Assembly: GCA_021793645.1 (NCBI GenBank)
Contig: JAJYSJ010000016.1
Coordinates: 1 to 53,214 of the forward strand
From: Bacillota bacterium
GTDB lineage: Bacteria; Bacillota; Sulfobacillia; JAJZYS01; JAJYTV01
Length of the DNA stretch: 53,214 bases
Direction of reading: 5' to 3'
Part shown: positions 34,153-41,564 of the stretch, in pieces
Layout: the number at the start of each line of letters is the position of its first letter
Position numbering within the stretch: the stretch's first letter is position 1
Program-made: the position numbers and the translations under genes
Notes under the pieces: generated by a model
Database searches by the model: none
What the model saw: only the letters and a program-made list of their open reading frames with translations
Told to the model about the DNA's origin: nothing

Positions 34153-34567
34153 ACGCTTCCCGGCCGCGCCTTATATCCTCGCCCTCAACAACGAGGTTTT
34201 ACGGCGCCGCTGATAAAGGGAGCGAAGATCCTCTTCGGCGGGAAGCGGCCGGGCCTCCCAGAGCAGGAGCCTTCTACCTGCCGACGCTCCCTGCGGACGC
34301 CGCAGCGGACACTGCGGTCGCGCAGGAGGAGATCTTTGTTCCCGTAGTGACTGCGACGCGCGCGGTGAAGCCCGGGCTGATCGGCGTCAACACGCCCCTC
34401 TCCAGATCGCCTGCACTTCCGTTCGGCGGCTACAAGCTCTCTGGGTTTGGGCGGGAGATGGCGATGGAGACTCTCTTTGCACCTCTACACCGAGCAGAAG
34501 ACCGCCCTCGTCCATACGGCAGAGAAGCCCGTCAATCCGTTCGGCGTCTGAAGCAAGGAGGAGAATG

Positions 34568-35638
34568 ATGGACATCTTCCGTGCCATGGCAGAGCACGGC
34601 CATGAACAGCTGATCTTCAACTATGACAAGGCCTCCGGTCTGCGCATGATCATCGCGCTGCACGACACGACGCTCGGCCCCGGACTCGGCGGCATGCGCA
34701 ACTGGCGCTACGGCAGTGAAGACGAAGCGGTCGCGGACGCGCTGCGCCTCTCGCGTGGCATGACCTACAAGAACTCCTTCGCCGGCATCGACTTCGGCGG
34801 TTCGAAGTGCGTGATCTACAACGACCCGGACGAGAAGTCGGATCTTCTGCTGCGTGCCGCAGGCCGTTTCGTCGAGATGCTCGGCGGGCGAATCTACACC
34901 GGTGAGGACGTAGGGCTGACGCCGGACGACGTCGAGGCATTGGCCCGCACCACCCGCTATCTTGTCGGTCGGCCGCACAAGAGTGGAGACCCCTCGAAGG
35001 CGGCGGCGCTTGGGACCTACTCCTCGATCTGCGCCAGCCTGCGGCACGTCTTCGGATCAGCGGAACCCAAAGACCGGCATGTCGCGATTCAGGGGGCGGG
35101 GAACGTCGGATCGGACCTGGCGCGCCGCCTCGTCGCGGATGGGGCAAAGGTCACGATCTGCGATCTCAAACCGGAGCGGGCGCAGGCGGTTGCCGACGCG
35201 ACGGGAGCGACAGTCGTTCCGAGCGATGCGATTTACGACGTGGCTTGCGACGTCTTCTCTCCGTGCGCGCTCGGACTCATCCTCAATCCGCAGACCCTGC
35301 CGCGCCTCAAGGCCAAGATCGTCTGCGGCTCCGCGAACAACCAGCTGGAGACGCCCGAGACCGCAGAGCAGCTGCGCCGCATGGGCATCCTCTACGCCCC
35401 GGACTTCATCGTCAACGGAGGCGGCATCGTTAACATCGCGGACGAGTTCGAGGACGGGGGCTACCAGCGCGAACGCGCCTTCCAGCGCGTCGCGCAGATC
35501 GGAGAGCGGCTTCTGGCCGTCTTCCGACGGGCCGAAGCGGAGGGCATCACGACGAGCGCTGCGGCTGAACGCATCGCGGAGGACCGCATCGCAGCCATTG
35601 CCCAACAGCAACGCTACTTCGTCCCGCAGCGGCCGTAG
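34568..35638 (+). CDS. Leu/Phe/Val-type amino acid dehydrogenase
   Basis: 356 aa from ATG 34568, 6 nt after AAGGAGG; an ATG at 34565 is nearer. It carries out reversible NAD-dependent oxidative deamination of an aliphatic or aromatic amino acid. It matches leucine dehydrogenases throughout: IIALHDTTLGPGLGGMRNW, GMTYKNSFAGIDFGGSK with the catalytic lysines, GEDVGLTPDDVEAL, the dinucleotide loop IQGAGNVGSDLARRL, and APDFIVNGGGIVN. Position next to a phenylacetate-type operon makes phenylalanine a possible substrate, but this is inference. Confidence 0.9.
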   Translation: MDIFRAMAEHGHEQLIFNYDKASGLRMIIALHDTTLGPGLGGMRNWRYGSEDEAVADALRLSRGMTYKNSFAGIDFGGSKCVIYNDPDEKSDLLLRAAGRFVEMLGGRIYTGEDVGLTPDDVEALARTTRYLVGRPHKSGDPSKAAALGTYSSICASLRHVFGSAEPKDRHVAIQGAGNVGSDLARRLVADGAKVTICDLKPERAQAVADATGATVVPSDAIYDVACDVFSPCALGLILNPQTLPRLKAKIVCGSANNQLETPETAEQLRRMGILYAPDFIVNGGGIVNIADEFEDGGYQRERAFQRVAQIGERLLAVFRRAEAEGITTSAAAERIAEDRIAAIAQQQRYFVPQRP

Positions 35639-35699: not shown

Positions 35700-36383
35700 G
35701 CGGCCTAAGGAGTCCACCGCGCGGAGATGAGGTAGAGCCGGTGTGTGCGCGGCCGAGGGTCGCGGTGTAGCTGCCGGAGCGCTCGGGTGCTGCGCCGGAG
35801 AGCGTTGCATAGGGAAGCGATACGGTCACCGCAGACGGCGTGCCGTCAGGGCGCAGAGCGGCCGTGATCGTCACGACGGCCGCCGGCCGGACAACCCAAG
35901 GACCCGGCGGGGGGAAGCCCAGCAGCTCAGGGGCTGGCCCGAATCCGGCGAGCGGAGACGCACCTCCGCTCGCCAGGGCCCGCAGCGTGCCGGCGAACAT
36001 GCGGCACGAACAGCGCTCCTGCGGCGGTCGGGACGAGCCGCGCCGCCGCCCGCGGTACGCGCGCGGTGCCCTCGAGGCGCTGGATGGACCCAGGGGGACC
36101 CGGGGCAAGGAGCGGGCCGGAGGTCGCAAGCAGCAGTATGGCAAGGAGCGAGGCTGCCGCACTGGGGCTGCGCGGAGCCTCCGGCGTTGCCGGATTGCGC
36201 GGGTGATCCCACTCCAGACGATGCCGGCGGTTCGCCAGCGGGCATCGGCCAGGCGCGCATGGTATCCGCGAGGCCGCGGCTGCGCAGGGTGCAGCGGGCA
36301 CAGGAAGCGAGGTGTGGATTCCCCTCGCCTCTGGAGAGCATGGACAGTAGATCCTCATCTGTCAGGTGCGGCATCTTGTACAT
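35700..36383 (-). pseudogene. Anti-sigma factor relic (zinc-finger ZAS domain, frameshifted)
   Basis: It begins at ATG 36383 inside the end of the sigma gene with MYKMPHLTDEDLLSML and a zinc-binding HLASCARC (H-x3-C-x2-C), the mark of a ZAS anti-sigma factor. Reading then has to move to a second frame for the membrane segment (AAASLLAILLLATSGPLLA, near 36140) and to a third for the external part (GPWVVRPAAVVTITAALRPD). The probable original C-terminus (RLYLISARWTP then TAG, near 35707) needs one more shift. With at least two and probably three frameshifts, it cannot make the full protein. Confidence 0.7.
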
Positions 36384-36482
36384 GCTCTCCCTCCTCTCGC
36401 GCCAACTCGCCCCGCATCTTCCGAAGGGCCCGCCGGATCGTCGACTTCACCGTACCCAGCGGCAGTCCCAGCAGCCGCGCGA
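36355..36482 (-). pseudogene. ECF sigma factor, C-terminal fragment (region 4.2)
   Basis: The minus strand reads RLLGLPLGTVKSTIRRALRK, then MRGELAREEGEHVQDAAPDR and a TGA at 36355-36357. This is the DNA-binding helix-turn-helix of region 4. It is severed from its N-terminal part (41133-41564) by the IS256-type insertion. It overlaps the anti-sigma start by 29 nt. Confidence 0.85.
36475..36482. repeat. 8-bp target-site duplication, left copy
   Basis: CCGCGCGA, identical to 41133-41140. Eight to nine base pairs is the normal duplication size of IS256-family elements. Confidence 0.85.
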
Positions 36483-36486
36483 AGTA

Positions 36487-36508
36487 GTGTCCGGTATCGT
36501 GTGTAAAT
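36487..36508 (+). repeat. IS256-type terminal inverted repeat, left
   Basis: Matches the complement of 41107-41128 at 15 of 22 positions, including GTCCGG and TGTAAAT. Confidence 0.7.
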
Positions 36509-36607
36509 AGAACGGTAGTTCTCTCCGGGAGGTGGAAGGAGGGAGAGCCACCGTGCCTCTGGTAATGGGGAGTTGACTAGACAACCCAGAAGACCGGAGG
36601 GATCACG

Positions 36608-37353
36608 ATGGCTCAGTTCCAGATTACCTTGGATAGCGAGATCGTGCAGGGGATTTTTCAGCGGGACGATGGGCTCTCGACGGTCGTGGAGCAGGTGCTG
36701 AACCAGATTCTCAAGGCGCAGGTGGGAGAGCAGCTGCAGGCAGAGCGCTATGAGCGCACCGAGAAGCGCCAGGGCTACCGGGAACGCGAGATGGTGACGC
36801 GAGTTGGCGCGATCACGCTGGATGTGCCACTAGTGCGCAACGGGACGTTCTCGACCGAGCTCTTCGCCCGCTACCAGCGCAGCGAGCAGGCCCTGATCCT
36901 CGCGCTGATGGAGATGGTGGTGAACGGCGTCTCCACCCGTAAGGTGCGGCGAGTGACGGAGGACCTGTGCGGCACGAGTTTCAGCAAGAGCACGGTCTCC
37001 GAGCTGTGCCGGGGGCTCGACGGCGCGGTCACAGAATGGAACGAGCGCCGGCTCGACGAGCAGGGATTCCCCTTCGTCATCGTCGACGCTCTGGTGCTGA
37101 AGGTGCGAAAGAACGGCCACATCCGCTCGCAGAGCGCGTTGCTGGCCATCGGGGTGAACGACGAGGGCTACCGGGAGATCCTCGGCTTGCGGCTGGGAGA
37201 CAGCGAGTCTCGGGACAGGTGGAGCGAGTTCTTCACCTGGCTCAAGAGCCGCGGCCTGCACGGCGTCGACCTAGTCACTTCCGACGATCACGCCGGCCTC
37301 GTCCAGGCGATCGGCCTGCACTTCCAGAACGGCACGTGGCAGCGCTGTCAGAC
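36608..37353 (+). pseudogene. IS256-family transposase, N-terminal fragment
   Basis: ATG 36608 after GGAGGGA. Reads MAQFQITLDSEIVQGIF, then YRTEKR-type DNA-binding parts, STRKVRRVTEDLCGTSFSKS, and the DDE core start VIVDALVLKVRKNGH. It ends at QRCQT where the inner element begins. The remainder of the gene lies at 40229-40667; joined with one copy of AGAC it gives an unbroken 394-aa transposase. Confidence 0.88.
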
Positions 37354-37354
37354 A

Positions 37355-37386
37355 CATTATGCCGAGCGACGGATTATGCCGAGGTG
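37355..37386 (+). repeat. Passenger element repeat, left (TTATGCCGAG twice)
   Basis: Two TTATGCCGAG units about 17 bp apart. The whole 32 bp is an imperfect complement of 40170-40201. An oppositely oriented CTCGGCATAATCC follows at 37429-37441. Confidence 0.8.
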
Positions 37387-37634
37387 GATGGTGCACGGCG
37401 CGGCACGGCCGAGCTCCGGCTGTTCAGACTCGGCATAATCCTGAGGTCGCTCAGGGCCTCGTACGCCGCCCTGGGCTCAATTAGAAGCGTCCAAAGCCGC
37501 TCTGTAACGGGCTCGGATGTGGTGGACAAGCGCGAGGACTGGGTCCGATTCTTCTTTTCGGCGCGTAGCTCGCCGCTCCGCGGATGCGCTGCGACCGTCG
37601 TAGCTCGAAAATCAAGTGTTGCATTAACATAACA

Positions 37635-37656
37635 GTCGCTATATTACTAGTGCGAC
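37635..37656. promoter_or_regulatory. Possible TetR operator in the MFS promoter
   Basis: GTCGC (37635-37639) and GCGAC (37652-37656) form an inverted repeat around TATATTAC, which could serve as the -10 region (upstream TTGCAT near 37619). A TetR-type dimer binding here would block MFS expression. Confidence 0.4.
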
Positions 37657-37702
37657 ATCAAGATGATTGGTCAAGCCGGACGGGATGGAAGGGGAGCACA
37701 GC

Positions 37703-39226
37703 ATGACGATGCGCTCTACACGCCGCTGGTGGGCGCTCGGTGCGATCAGCCTCGCGGTCCTTGCGATCACCCTCGATGTGACAGTCCTGAGCCTTGCCCT
37801 GCCGACGCTTGCGGGCGTCTTCAAGGCGTCGGAGTCGGAGCTCCAGTGGTTTATGACAGCATATACCCTGGCGCTCGTCGCCGGCATGCTGCCGGCGGGC
37901 CTCCTGGGTGACCGCTTCGGCCAGAAGGCGCTGATGGTGGCGGCGCTGCTGCTCTTCGCGGTCGGTTCGCTCGGCTGTGCGTACGCTCCGGATGCTGCCG
38001 TGTTCATCGCGGCCAGGATCGTCGTCGCCCTTGCCGGTGCCGCCGCCATAGTGGTCGCGCTTTCGGTCCTCACGCTGCTCTTCAACGAGGAGGAGCGGCC
38101 CCGAGCCGTGGGCATCTGGGGCGCCGCGAACTTTCTCGGACTGCCCATCGGTCCGATCATCGGAGGCTGGATCCTGTCCCACGCGTGGTGGGGCTGGATC
38201 TTCCTCATGAACGTGCCGGTGGCGGTCCTGGCCGTGTTCGCCGTGCTCTGGCTCGTGCCCCAGTCCAAGTCGGGGCCGAAGCAGGGCTTCGACGTTCTCG
38301 GCCTCCTGCTCGCGAGCGCAGGGCTCGTGGCCATGATGTACGGCGTGATCAAGGCGGGAACGAGCGGTTGGGGCAGCGCGGACGCTTTGATGCCGGTCGC
38401 CGTGGGCGTCGTCCTGCTGGCGGCGTTCGCCCTCTGGGAGGGCTATGTCTCCCGCAGGTCTGATGGCCAGCCCCTGGTCGATTTGAGCCTCTTCCACTCG
38501 CGCAGCTTCACCTGGGGCGTCCTCCTCACCGCGTTCGGCACGCTCGGCCTCTTCGGCGTCCTCTTCGGCCTGCCGCAGTTTCTCCAGGCGATCGAGGGCA
38601 TCGGTCCGGAAGCGACAGGTGTGCGGCTCCTGCCCGTCATCGTCGGCATGATCCTGGGCGCCGTACCGGCCGACCGAGTTGCGGCGAAGATCGGAGCGCG
38701 GTTCACGGTGGCAGCGGGATTCGCCGTGGTGGTGCTCGGCTCCACCCTGGGCGGCGCCATGACGGTCAGCAGCAGCAACAGCTACATTGCAGTCTGGACC
38801 TTCGTCGTGGGACTCGGTGCCGGCCTCGGCTTCGCCACCGCCGCCTCGGCCGCTCTCGTCGAACTCCCCCAGGAGCGAAGCGGCGTCGGCTCGGCCCTCC
38901 TGCAGGCAGTGGTCAAGCTCGGCCCTGCTTTTGGCTCCTCCATCCTCGGCAGCGTCATGAATTCGGCCTACCAAGGTCAAGTGGATGTATCCGGTCTGCC
39001 CGTGGCCGCTGCCGCGGTCGTGAAGGCCAGCGTCTTCGGCGGCATCGCTGTGGCTCGACAGGTGGGCTCGAACTCCCTGTTCCTGTCGATCGAAAAGGCC
39101 TTTGTCGCAGGTATGGACCAGTCGATGCTGGTCACGGCAGGCATCGCGGCTGCGGCGGTGATCCTGGCACTAGTGTTCCTACCCGCGCGGAGGCATCGCG
39201 CAGCCGCCGTGGAACCGACGAAGTAA
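37703..39226 (+). CDS. MFS drug efflux transporter, DHA2 (14-TM) type
   Basis: 507 aa from ATG 37703 (GGAAGGGGAG before it). The sequence is mostly hydrophobic with about 14 segments. MFS motif A is seen as GLLGDRFGQKALM, motif C-like as GAANFLGLPIGPIIGGWIL, and the DHA2 start as LDVTVLSLALPTLAGVFKAS. It is a proton-driven exporter of the EmrB/QacA class, probably for a toxic compound. A TetR regulator follows, and both are inside the passenger element, so the pump was brought in by transposition. Confidence 0.92.
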   Translation: MTMRSTRRWWALGAISLAVLAITLDVTVLSLALPTLAGVFKASESELQWFMTAYTLALVAGMLPAGLLGDRFGQKALMVAALLLFAVGSLGCAYAPDAAVFIAARIVVALAGAAAIVVALSVLTLLFNEEERPRAVGIWGAANFLGLPIGPIIGGWILSHAWWGWIFLMNVPVAVLAVFAVLWLVPQSKSGPKQGFDVLGLLLASAGLVAMMYGVIKAGTSGWGSADALMPVAVGVVLLAAFALWEGYVSRRSDGQPLVDLSLFHSRSFTWGVLLTAFGTLGLFGVLFGLPQFLQAIEGIGPEATGVRLLPVIVGMILGAVPADRVAAKIGARFTVAAGFAVVVLGSTLGGAMTVSSSNSYIAVWTFVVGLGAGLGFATAASAALVELPQERSGVGSALLQAVVKLGPAFGSSILGSVMNSAYQGQVDVSGLPVAAAAVVKASVFGGIAVARQVGSNSLFLSIEKAFVAGMDQSMLVTAGIAAAAVILALVFLPARRHRAAAVEPTK

Positions 39227-39322
39227 CCGGATCGGCGGCTTGCAGTTCGAGTCCCGGCACGTGCCGCTGATGCGCCAACGCGGTATGCTTTGGTCAGGAG
39301 CCTACGGAGGAGGACGAGGGCG

Positions 39323-39928
39323 GTGGCCCGGACGCAACAGGGCGAAGGCCTCGGCCTGCGCGAACGCAAGAAGTTCAGGACGCGACAGCTGATCCAGTCC
39401 CATGCCCTGCGCCTGTTCCACGAGCAAGGATACAAGGAGACATCCGTGGAAGAGATCGCCGAGGCGGCCGAGGTGTCGCCCTCGACGGTCTTCCACTACT
39501 TCCCGACCAAGGCGGACCTCGTGATCTACGACTCCATGGACGAGCTGCTTGTGGAGGCGCTACGCGCGGTGCCGGCGGACGTCGGCCTTCTCGAGGCCAT
39601 GCGGCAGGCGATCAGGCAGACGTTCTCGTCTGCCCACCAGGCCGACATGGACACCCAAGTAGAGCGTGAGCGACTGATGCGCACCGTGCCCGAGTTGCGC
39701 GCCGCCATGCTCGAGGAGTTCACCCGCACGATGCACGTGCTCTCGGAGCTCCTGGCAGAGCGCTCCGGCCGGCCGGCGAACGACGAGAAGCTCGAGGCAC
39801 TCGCGGGCGCCGTGATCGGCATCGGCCTCTCCGCCTGGCTTAGGGGCGATGGCGAAGTCATGACGCAATCTTTCCTCGAGCGCATCGACAGGGGAATGGC
39901 CTGGCTCGCCTCCGGCTTCAATCTCTAG
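39323..39928 (+). CDS. TetR-family transcriptional regulator
   Basis: 201 aa from GTG 39323 after GGAGGAGGA. N-terminal helix-turn-helix: LRERKKFRTRQLIQSHALRL, then EEIAEAAEVSPSTVFHYFPTKADLV. The ligand domain is variable. It most likely controls the neighbouring pump, in keeping with the inverted repeat in the pump's promoter region. Confidence 0.9.
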   Translation: MARTQQGEGLGLRERKKFRTRQLIQSHALRLFHEQGYKETSVEEIAEAAEVSPSTVFHYFPTKADLVIYDSMDELLVEALRAVPADVGLLEAMRQAIRQTFSSAHQADMDTQVERERLMRTVPELRAAMLEEFTRTMHVLSELLAERSGRPANDEKLEALAGAVIGIGLSAWLRGDGEVMTQSFLERIDRGMAWLASGFNL

Positions 39929-40169
39929 CGGCGAATCTTTCGAGGGCTGCCCGAACCTCCCATGGCCTGGGTGGCCCTCAGCATGTCCAAGACCTTCTGA
40001 CCCATGCGGAGGAGCGCACCTCGTGGCAATGTGGGCGTGAGAGCGGTGTCGCAGTGCACCGGGGCCTTCAACCCACCCCGGCAAAGGGGTGTCCGAGATC
40101 GCCTACAGGACAGCATATTATGCTGAGGCCAGGAAGTCGTGGTCCGCCGCTTGCGCACCTCCCAGGGTA
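39929..40169. other. Right part of the passenger element, no gene supported
   Basis: About 240 bp between the tetR stop and the right repeat. A partial palindrome with the repeat core (CAGCATATTATGCTGAGG, 40111-40128) is present; nothing else was recognised. Confidence 0.5.
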
Positions 40170-40217
40170 CAGCTCGGCATAATCCGGCCCTCGGCATAAT
40201 GCATTTTATGCCGATCT
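40170..40217 (-). repeat. Passenger element repeats, right (three TTATGCCGA units)
   Basis: CTCGGCATAAT twice (40173-40183 and 40190-40200) in inverted orientation to the left end, plus TTTTATGCCGATC at 40204-40216. Confidence 0.8.
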
Positions 40218-40228
40218 CCACATAAGAC

Positions 40229-40667
40229 CCACTTGACTCGCAACATCCTCGACGCCTGCCCCAAGGCTCTGCAGAACAGCCTGAACAGCCAACTGCAGGC
40301 ACTGTTCACCGCTCCAGACCCTCAGACCGCTCGCCAACTCCTCCACAGCATCCTCGCAACCTACGGCGAGAAAGCGCCGCAGGCGGTAGAGCGCCTGGAG
40401 AACGGGTTCGACGACGCGATCTCCGTCCTCAACTACCCCGAGCCCTACCGCAAGCGCCTGCGGACCACGAACATCGTGGAGCGCCTCAACGAGGAGATCC
40501 GTCGACGGGAGCGGGTCATCCGCATCTTTCCGAACGGCGCCTCCGTCATCCGACTCCTCGGCGCCCTGCTCACGGAGCAGCACGAGGCGTGGTCTACGGG
40601 CCGCAAGTACTTCGACATGGCCGCCTACTGGGACTGGCGCAGGCCTCAGGCTGAGGCAGCCGACTGA
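40229..40667 (+). pseudogene. IS256-family transposase, C-terminal fragment
   Basis: Continues the split transposase: LTRNILDACPKALQNSLNSQ, the catalytic-glutamate region RLRTTNIVERLNEEIRRRER, VIRIFPN, and the end EAWSTGRKYFDMAAYW. Stop TGA at 40665-40667. Together with 36608-37353 all three DDE parts are accounted for. Confidence 0.88.
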
Positions 40668-41106
40668 ATCCCATGCCAGAGCGCATAACCTGTCACGACC
40701 TAATGGCTCGCCCTGCTCGTAGGCCCTTTGTCGCAACTACCACCGTGAGCGCCAAAAACCCAAGTTCGACGCCGTACAAGACCTCATGCCCAATGGCGCT
40801 AATGGGCCGCCCAGTTACATCCGGGAGGAAAGATTGAATCGCTTGAGCGACTACTACCCCGGATGCGAGTACTGCAAACGACATCTTCCGGGCTCGATGG
40901 AGTCGCTCCCCGTTCAGTCGCGCAAAAACCATGTCGCCACCCCCGATTACCTGTTACCAACTTGTGTACCATACGCTACCACGTCAGGTCCATCTCGCAA
41001 GGCGTTGTCACTGGAACCACCTTGGCGCCCTGGGCTACAAAGGTGCAAGTACTTCGACACGGCGGCCAACTGGGCCGCACCGACTTCAGGCCCGTTGCCA
41101 GAGTGA
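40668..41106 (+). other. Segment of unknown origin ending in a second IS256-type transposase tail
   Basis: The last 65 bp before the right repeat encode KYFDTAANW and end in TGA (41104-41106). They are similar in DNA to the tail of the first transposase (KYFDMAAYW). The preceding 370 bp contain no recognisable gene. The right end of the insertion therefore seems to come from a second, related IS or from a partial tandem event. Confidence 0.55.
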
Positions 41107-41128
41107 ATTTACATCACGTTCCGGACTT
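41107..41128 (-). repeat. IS256-type terminal inverted repeat, right
   Basis: Imperfect complement of 36487-36508 directly after the transposase-tail stop codon. Confidence 0.7.
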
Positions 41129-41132
41129 GACC

Positions 41133-41140
41133 CCGCGCGA
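41133..41140. repeat. 8-bp target-site duplication, right copy
   Basis: CCGCGCGA, identical to 36475-36482. Confidence 0.85.
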
Positions 41141-41564
41141 TCTCGTGGTGCGGGTATCCGCCGAAGTAGCTGAGCTCGACCGCTCTTCGCTCCTTCGCCG
41201 TCCGTTCATTGAGCGCGGCCAGGTGGTCGAATCGGTCGGGCTCCGGCAGCGGGTCGACGCCGCTCGATTCGGTAAGGAATGTCTCCGGGCGTCTGCGACG
41301 CAGGAGGTCCAGGGCGCGAGAGCGCGCGATGCTGGTGAGCCATGCCGAGAGCGACGCGCGCTCCGGGTCATAGCTCGCGGCGGTCTGCCACGCTTGCAGG
41401 AACACCTGCTGCAGCACGTCCTCGGCCTGGCGGTGGTCGCGCAAAAGCAGCAGCAGGATGCGGAAAAGCCGCGCCGCGTGCAGGTCATAGACCTGCCGCA
41501 GGGCGGCTTCCTCATCGCGCTGTACCCGAAGCATCAGCGCATCTCCCACTCGGTCGGCGCTCAT
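41133..41564 (-). pseudogene. ECF sigma factor, N-terminal fragment (regions 2 and part of 4)
   Basis: It starts at ATG 41564, 4 nt after the response-regulator stop. It reads ALMLRVQRDEEAALRQVYDL, region 2 with DHRQAEDVLQQVFLQAWQTA and WLTSIARSRALDLLRRRR, then VELSYFGGYPHHEIAR at the junction. Joined to 36355-36482 with one target duplication, it gives an unbroken 183-aa ECF sigma factor. The fragment lacks the promoter -35 binding helix, so it should not direct transcription. Confidence 0.9.

Follow-up and report, generated by a model that had tools for sequence, protein, structure and literature searches.

The stretch of DNA described here, called the window in the following, is the whole of contig C85 (53,214 bp) in the draft genome of a Bacillota bacterium (3.4 Mb, 94 contigs), and on its minus strand the gene of an extracytoplasmic function (ECF) sigma factor lies in two parts on either side of a 4.65-kb insertion. 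The insertion is an insertion sequence (IS) of the IS256 family, and its transposase gene is in turn interrupted by an element that carries an efflux gene and a TetR regulator between ends of the recombinase-in-trio (RIT) type. It is very likely that two kinds of mobile DNA are nested here, an IS256-family insertion in the sigma gene and, entering later, a RIT-ended efflux/TetR element in the IS256 transposase gene. A first-pass annotation of this DNA had proposed that the sigma gene is split by an IS256 element and this in turn by a cargo element, and the junctions, fusions and profile matches bear this out.

The N-terminal part of the sigma gene (41141..41564, minus strand) has an intact region 2 (Pfam Sigma70_r2, 2e-17) and runs to the HHEIA motif of region 4, and the C-terminal part (36355..36482, minus strand) carries the region 4.2 recognition helix LLGLPLGTVKSTIRRAL and includes one of the two copies of an 8-bp target duplication, CCGCGCGA, which lie at 36475..36482 and 41133..41140. 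When the flanks are fused in silico with a single 8-bp copy, the exact join yields an unbroken ECF sigma factor of 183 aa, as had been predicted, and the genome G002, from the same genus, has an intact homologue with 79% amino acid identity over residues 2-183. Across the sigma junction the DNA of the window and that of G002 align without gaps at 81% identity, so that the site is empty in G002, and both genomes share the gene order: the two-component genes, a histidine kinase followed by a response regulator, lie upstream of the sigma gene, and the anti-sigma gene lies downstream of it.

The outer element (36483..41132, plus strand) begins with AGTAGTGTCCGGTATCGTGTGTAAA and finishes with TTTACATCACGTTCCGGACTTGACC, its left and right inverted repeats span 36483-36507 and 41108-41132, and the CCGCGCGA duplications abut both ends exactly. 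The same genome holds an intact, uninterrupted copy on contig C45 (C45:1583-2954, equal to L009:1583-2954; C-numbers without a prefix are contigs of this genome), which is 86% identical over 1350 bp and has the same ends (AGTAGTGTCCGG...TTCCGGACTTGACC, one base of difference in the 25-bp ends) next to an 8-bp duplication of its own, CGGCATCT. Because this copy fixes the same ends with its own duplication, the outer boundaries are independent of the sigma fusion in the first-pass annotation. Of the inverted repeats common to both copies, the right one is also found in C50 and the left one in C71. The 5' part of the transposase gene (36608..37356, plus strand; Pfam Transposase_mut 2e-85, NCBIfam IS256 245 bits) and its 3' part (40226..40667, plus strand; Transposase_mut 2e-29, alignment to C45) both match Transposase_mut and NF033543, in order, and fusion of 36608-37353 with 40229-40667 reproduces the predicted 1185 nt and 394-aa transposase, with the C45 copy running continuously through the join. 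Empty sites, which had been proposed as a check in relatives, are therefore at hand for both insertions, the sigma site in G002 and the transposase site in the C45 copy. In its transposase family, 8-bp duplication and inverted ends the outer element is like the IS256 family (Mutator superfamily), of which the intact copy measures about 1.37 kb, but it differs by the split and by roughly 400 nt of additional 3' tail that contain a second 3' end.

The inner element (37357-40225) encodes only an EmrB-like efflux transporter (DHA2/EmrB-like, major facilitator superfamily, MFS; 37703..39226, plus strand; NCBIfam TIGR00711, 249 bits, above cut-off; start codon inferred) and a TetR-family regulator with an MftR-like C-terminal domain (39290..39928, plus strand; Pfam TetR_N and TetR_C_14), and no recombinase or transposase gene was found in it by Pfam and NCBIfam profile searches. 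Both ends are built on a shared plan of two TTATGCCGA arms 17 bp apart and an inverted inner arm, with a palindromic core on one side. At the left end (37357..37438, plus strand) the arms start at 37357 and 37374 and the inverted copy at 37430, a layout as in the RIT trios L057/L058, and the right end (40174..40199, minus strand) has the paired TTATGCCGA in a 91% inverted match to the left end. The diverged inner arm of the right end, read from the sequence as TTATGCTGA (40118..40126, plus strand), matches the inner arm of RITs in position, and the outer palindromic core TTATGCCGATCTCCACATAA (40206..40225, 14/20 self-complementary) is present on this end only, as in relatives.

Directly outside these ends lie a left 6-bp core GACACA (37351..37356) and a right 6-bp core GACCCA (40226..40231), each included in the adjoining transposase part, and the right one is identical to the uninterrupted C45 transposase. 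Complete elements elsewhere have an arm TCGGCATAA, six bases and an arm TTATGCCGA, and their flanking unit is 6 bp; all three 6-mers (left, right and inner) are identical in L094, L095, L126, L154 and L183, and in about 15 of 28 elements examined a fusion of the flanks with one 6-bp copy restores an open, recognisable motif. The 4-bp AGAC duplication that had been annotated at the inner junction is thus better read as a 6-bp core, AGAC being part of the core and the preceding A.

As the trio of tyrosine recombinase genes is missing, the inner element is a RIT-ended element and not a RIT. In G006:C145 and G002:C217 the same ends enclose a trio of tyrosine recombinase genes with 4-bp overlaps, namely RitA, RitB and RitC of 450, 307 and 329 aa, and RitC of these relatives shows 58% identity to proteins of pHG1 and 59% to a protein from a plasmid of Aromatoleum EbN1, the hosts of both having been cited as RIT-rich (PMC3414803). 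Like RIT elements such as those of Cupriavidus metallidurans CH34 and pHG1 (PMC2864759, PMC3414803), the window element has a terminal inverted repeat (about 28 bp) overlapped by a palindrome, but instead of the ritA-ritB-ritC genes of relatives with the same ends it holds efflux and regulator cargo. Among plasmid RITs, one Streptomyces copy and one Mycobacterium copy share the layout of arm and 6 bp, with targets read by eye as transposase motifs, and the test for this layout showed no clear ends in two further plasmid RITs. Tn554, GInt and the strand-biased integrative elements also bring several tyrosine-type recombinases together, and the strand-biased and Tn554-related ones have a 6-bp footprint (PMC10214605), but gene sets and ends differ from those of RIT-ended elements. 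Miniature inverted-repeat transposable elements (MITEs) and other trans-mobilised derivatives have ends without a mobilising gene, as has the window element, whose ends however hold two complete genes.

An ordinary DDE transposon, or a composite one, with efflux cargo and a 4-bp AGAC duplication would account for AGAC on both sides and for the frame restored by a single copy, but it is very improbable, as in relatives these ends go with tyrosine recombinases and not with DDE transposases, the unit in other copies is 6 bp and not 4 bp, and the target, as described below, is the same codons in one orientation. On these grounds, and with no transposase inside, a composite or 4-bp-duplicating transposon was rejected for the inner element. 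Of the two successive transpositions that had been read from the locus, the outer one holds, with its 8-bp duplication and the empty site in G002, and the inner one is not supported, given RIT termini, a core of the tyrosine recombinase type and a recurrent site. The MFS-TetR pair looks like captured chromosomal cargo, because the family also contains related pairs that lack RIT-type ends (88% in G008 and about 76% elsewhere). No further RIT-ended copies were found in the window's own genome, where paired TTATGCCGA arms are confined to the inner element.

Several variants of RIT-ended elements were observed beside these. There are MITE-like forms of 325-341 bp without recombinase (L126:53-381, L137:237-577, L096:3188-3512), and at L170:1727-5137 a RIT-ended element interrupts an apparent RitB-like recombinase gene (DLRHTFAVRRLL), a RIT within a RIT. 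At L053:1083-4560, beside an interrupted IS in G007, a protein of 845 aa with two tyrosine recombinase domains is followed by one of 427 aa, and the two are perhaps another fused trio.

The inner insertion site is recurrent. In G007, a genome of another genus in the same family, an IS that is 100% identical to the C45 copy over its whole length (891 + 485 bp; L053/L054) is broken at the same codons as in the window by an element whose ends are the same, and as the C45 copy is uninterrupted, the filled and the empty state of one IS are both seen. The two G007 contigs stop inside this element, and no overlap with G007:C228, G007:C198 or G006:C25 was found for its interior. It might be objected that the window unites unrelated pieces by an artefact of assembly or binning, since the genome is a draft of 94 contigs and IS256- and RIT-type repeats frequently break contigs. 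This is extremely unlikely: the 53-kb contig is unbroken and syntenic with G002 on both sides, the C45 copy of the IS is just 86% identical, and the same filled site is found independently in G007.

Among 154 genomes of the class, 17 carry such ends (with at most 2 mismatches), and in the sequence next to the ends one reads IS256, IS66 and rve-type transposases, an ExeA-like ATPase and a tyrosine recombinase, several of these names coming from motif recognition only. Exact ends were confined to the genus in a phylum-wide sample. A wider survey of RIT-type ends covered a collection of 84,980 species with at least 117 loci; its figures, here and below, are those among the matches listed, in which the ends are spread over many phyla. 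The open reading frames (ORFs) flanking 117 distinct junctions gave 30 Pfam matches to Transposase_mut, whereas 67 control sites, at a distance of 1.5-2.8 kb from the junctions, gave no such match, and the other families at flanks are group II intron reverse transcriptase/maturase, phage integrase, TrwC relaxase, IS110, IS66 and ISL3, with phage integrase being weak as evidence because it is frequent in controls too (6). Codons for C-x-x-H end exactly at the left junction in 24 of 125 distinct junctions, three of which (L114, L123, L224) possibly reflect chance or another family, compared with 0.16% of random positions, and H-x-x-R-N begins exactly at the right junction in 12 of the 125, compared with 0 of 22,200 random positions. 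In a stricter set, 33 cases have the same orientation and none the reverse, and the transposases, which come from several phyla, group into about 10 clusters with identities below 60%. In IS256-type transposases, insertion thus recurs across species at one set of codons, C-x-x-H|x-x-R-N, in a single orientation. Elements with these ends are also found at conserved motifs within genes of other mobile elements, one of them within a group II intron reverse transcriptase (L154:1046-4387), where the join restores SFFDVLDHDWL.

A recurrent site could also result from descent, if a single RIT-type insertion in one IS256 had been copied along by IS256 transposition. Spread of this kind does occur, as the window IS256 has kept ends that match those of an intact autonomous copy, and two genera share an identical C45 IS, which by comparison of the sequences points to a very recent transfer between relatives. 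As an account of the recurrence, descent is nonetheless quite unlikely, because the interrupted transposases fall into those roughly ten diverged clusters from several phyla and the same ends are found in other gene families as well. Insertion might instead be widespread and persist only in transposase genes, which are generally dispensable and present in many copies, but such survivorship would leave the single fixed codon position and orientation unaccounted for and is hardly credible.

Some observations weigh against a targeted, RIT-type integration in the window. Its left and right cores agree in 5 of 6 bases, and its inner 6 bp (AATGCA when reversed) match neither core; the degenerate outer palindrome suggests that it may be old or immobile. 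Among about 25 complete elements it is the sole cargo-only case, and the genome that harbours it lacks an intact RIT trio and has just a RitC-like fragment, at C91. For over half of the junctions among the matches listed, no mobile-element family was recognised, many of the flanks being short or intergenic, and since distinctness of junctions was set by the last 45 bases alone, not all of them are independent events. Movement by the RIT recombinases is putative and would be read from sequence footprints.

For the nested structure, the following history can be proposed. An IS256-family element first transposed into the sigma gene with duplication of 8 bp, as the empty-site comparison shows, and a non-autonomous RIT-ended element with efflux and TetR cargo would then have integrated into the IS256 transposase gene. 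The chemistry is likely a conservative tyrosine recombination, in which the recombinases would bind the inverted arms TCGGCATAA / TTATGCCGA and strands would be exchanged over a 6-bp overlap pairing with the target GACCCA within the C-x-x-H codons of the transposase. As the window element encodes no recombinase, the recombinases would have been supplied in trans by a RIT trio elsewhere, of the kind found in relatives from the same family. The chances are evenly balanced that RIT-ended elements are, more generally, homing parasites of other mobile elements, their recombinases being directed at conserved codons in the genes of transposases, recombinases and the reverse transcriptases of group II introns, with cargo-only derivatives riding in trans and, in this case, forming a two-tier shuttle for a resistance-type pump, RIT ends within IS256 ends. 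It is possible that the whole 4.65-kb unit could move as the second tier by means of the intact C45 transposase.

RIT elements are widespread but poorly understood. Published RITs interrupt an IS66 tnpA, a Tn6049-like transposase gene and radC on an integrative and conjugative element (PMC2864759, PMC3414803), RIT target specificity has been listed as not tested (PMC10214605), and on targets or cargo of RITs the literature searched holds isolated cases only. As far as the accessible literature shows, a codon-level target rule with fixed orientation, the 6-bp core and a cargo-only RIT derivative would be new. Such a rule is testable: in IS256-type transposases, insertion would take place at the C-x-x-H codons, always in one orientation and with a core of 6 bp, and genes of other mobile elements would offer parallel sites. 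The rule would account for the isolated published RITs lying in transposase genes, and it would show RIT-ended elements silencing other mobile elements and RIT ends carrying unrelated cargo.

For the host, the nested structure is a clean case of regulator loss through insertion. The break in the sigma gene lies in region 4, between HHEIA and LLGLPLGTVKSTIRRAL, and therefore cuts off the promoter-recognition helix from the rest of the protein, and the next-best sigma factor of the genome has 33% identity, which leaves no close paralogue. In G002 the anti-sigma counterpart is intact and of the RskA type (RskA_C domain), and a tblastn search with this protein located an RskA anti-sigma-K-like remnant in two frames at 36005..36383 (minus strand) and did not find the last third of the gene in the window. 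With the recognition helix separated, no close sigma paralogue and a frameshifted anti-sigma gene, it is likely that the whole sigma/anti-sigma module has been lost, and it is plausible that the sigma regulon is silent in this strain. Either of the two genes may have gone first, and the order matters because the sigma factor would be unrestrained once the anti-sigma factor was lost.

The outline of the outer element in the first-pass annotation was right in the IS256 identity and overlooked part of the 3' tail. Compared with C45, the window copy carries about 400 extra nt 3' of the transposase stop codon (within 40681-41132). They comprise an orphan segment of 364 bp (40681..41044) that is absent from C45 and has no convincing match in the 154 genomes of the class or in PLSDB, and a second, diverged IS256 3' end (41045..41132, plus strand) that is 90% identical over 30 bp to 40603-40632 and matches the C45 and C50 ends. 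Because this second 3' end provides the right inverted repeat, we infer that the outer unit may be a hybrid of two IS256 copies, formed for example by a transposition that paired the left end of one with the right end of another. The orphan segment contains an ORF of 79 aa on the minus strand. Farther to the left, a leucine/glutamate-type dehydrogenase is encoded at 34565-35638 (plus strand), the nearest match of which is the tryptophan dehydrogenase ScyB (365 bits, below the cut-off of 600).

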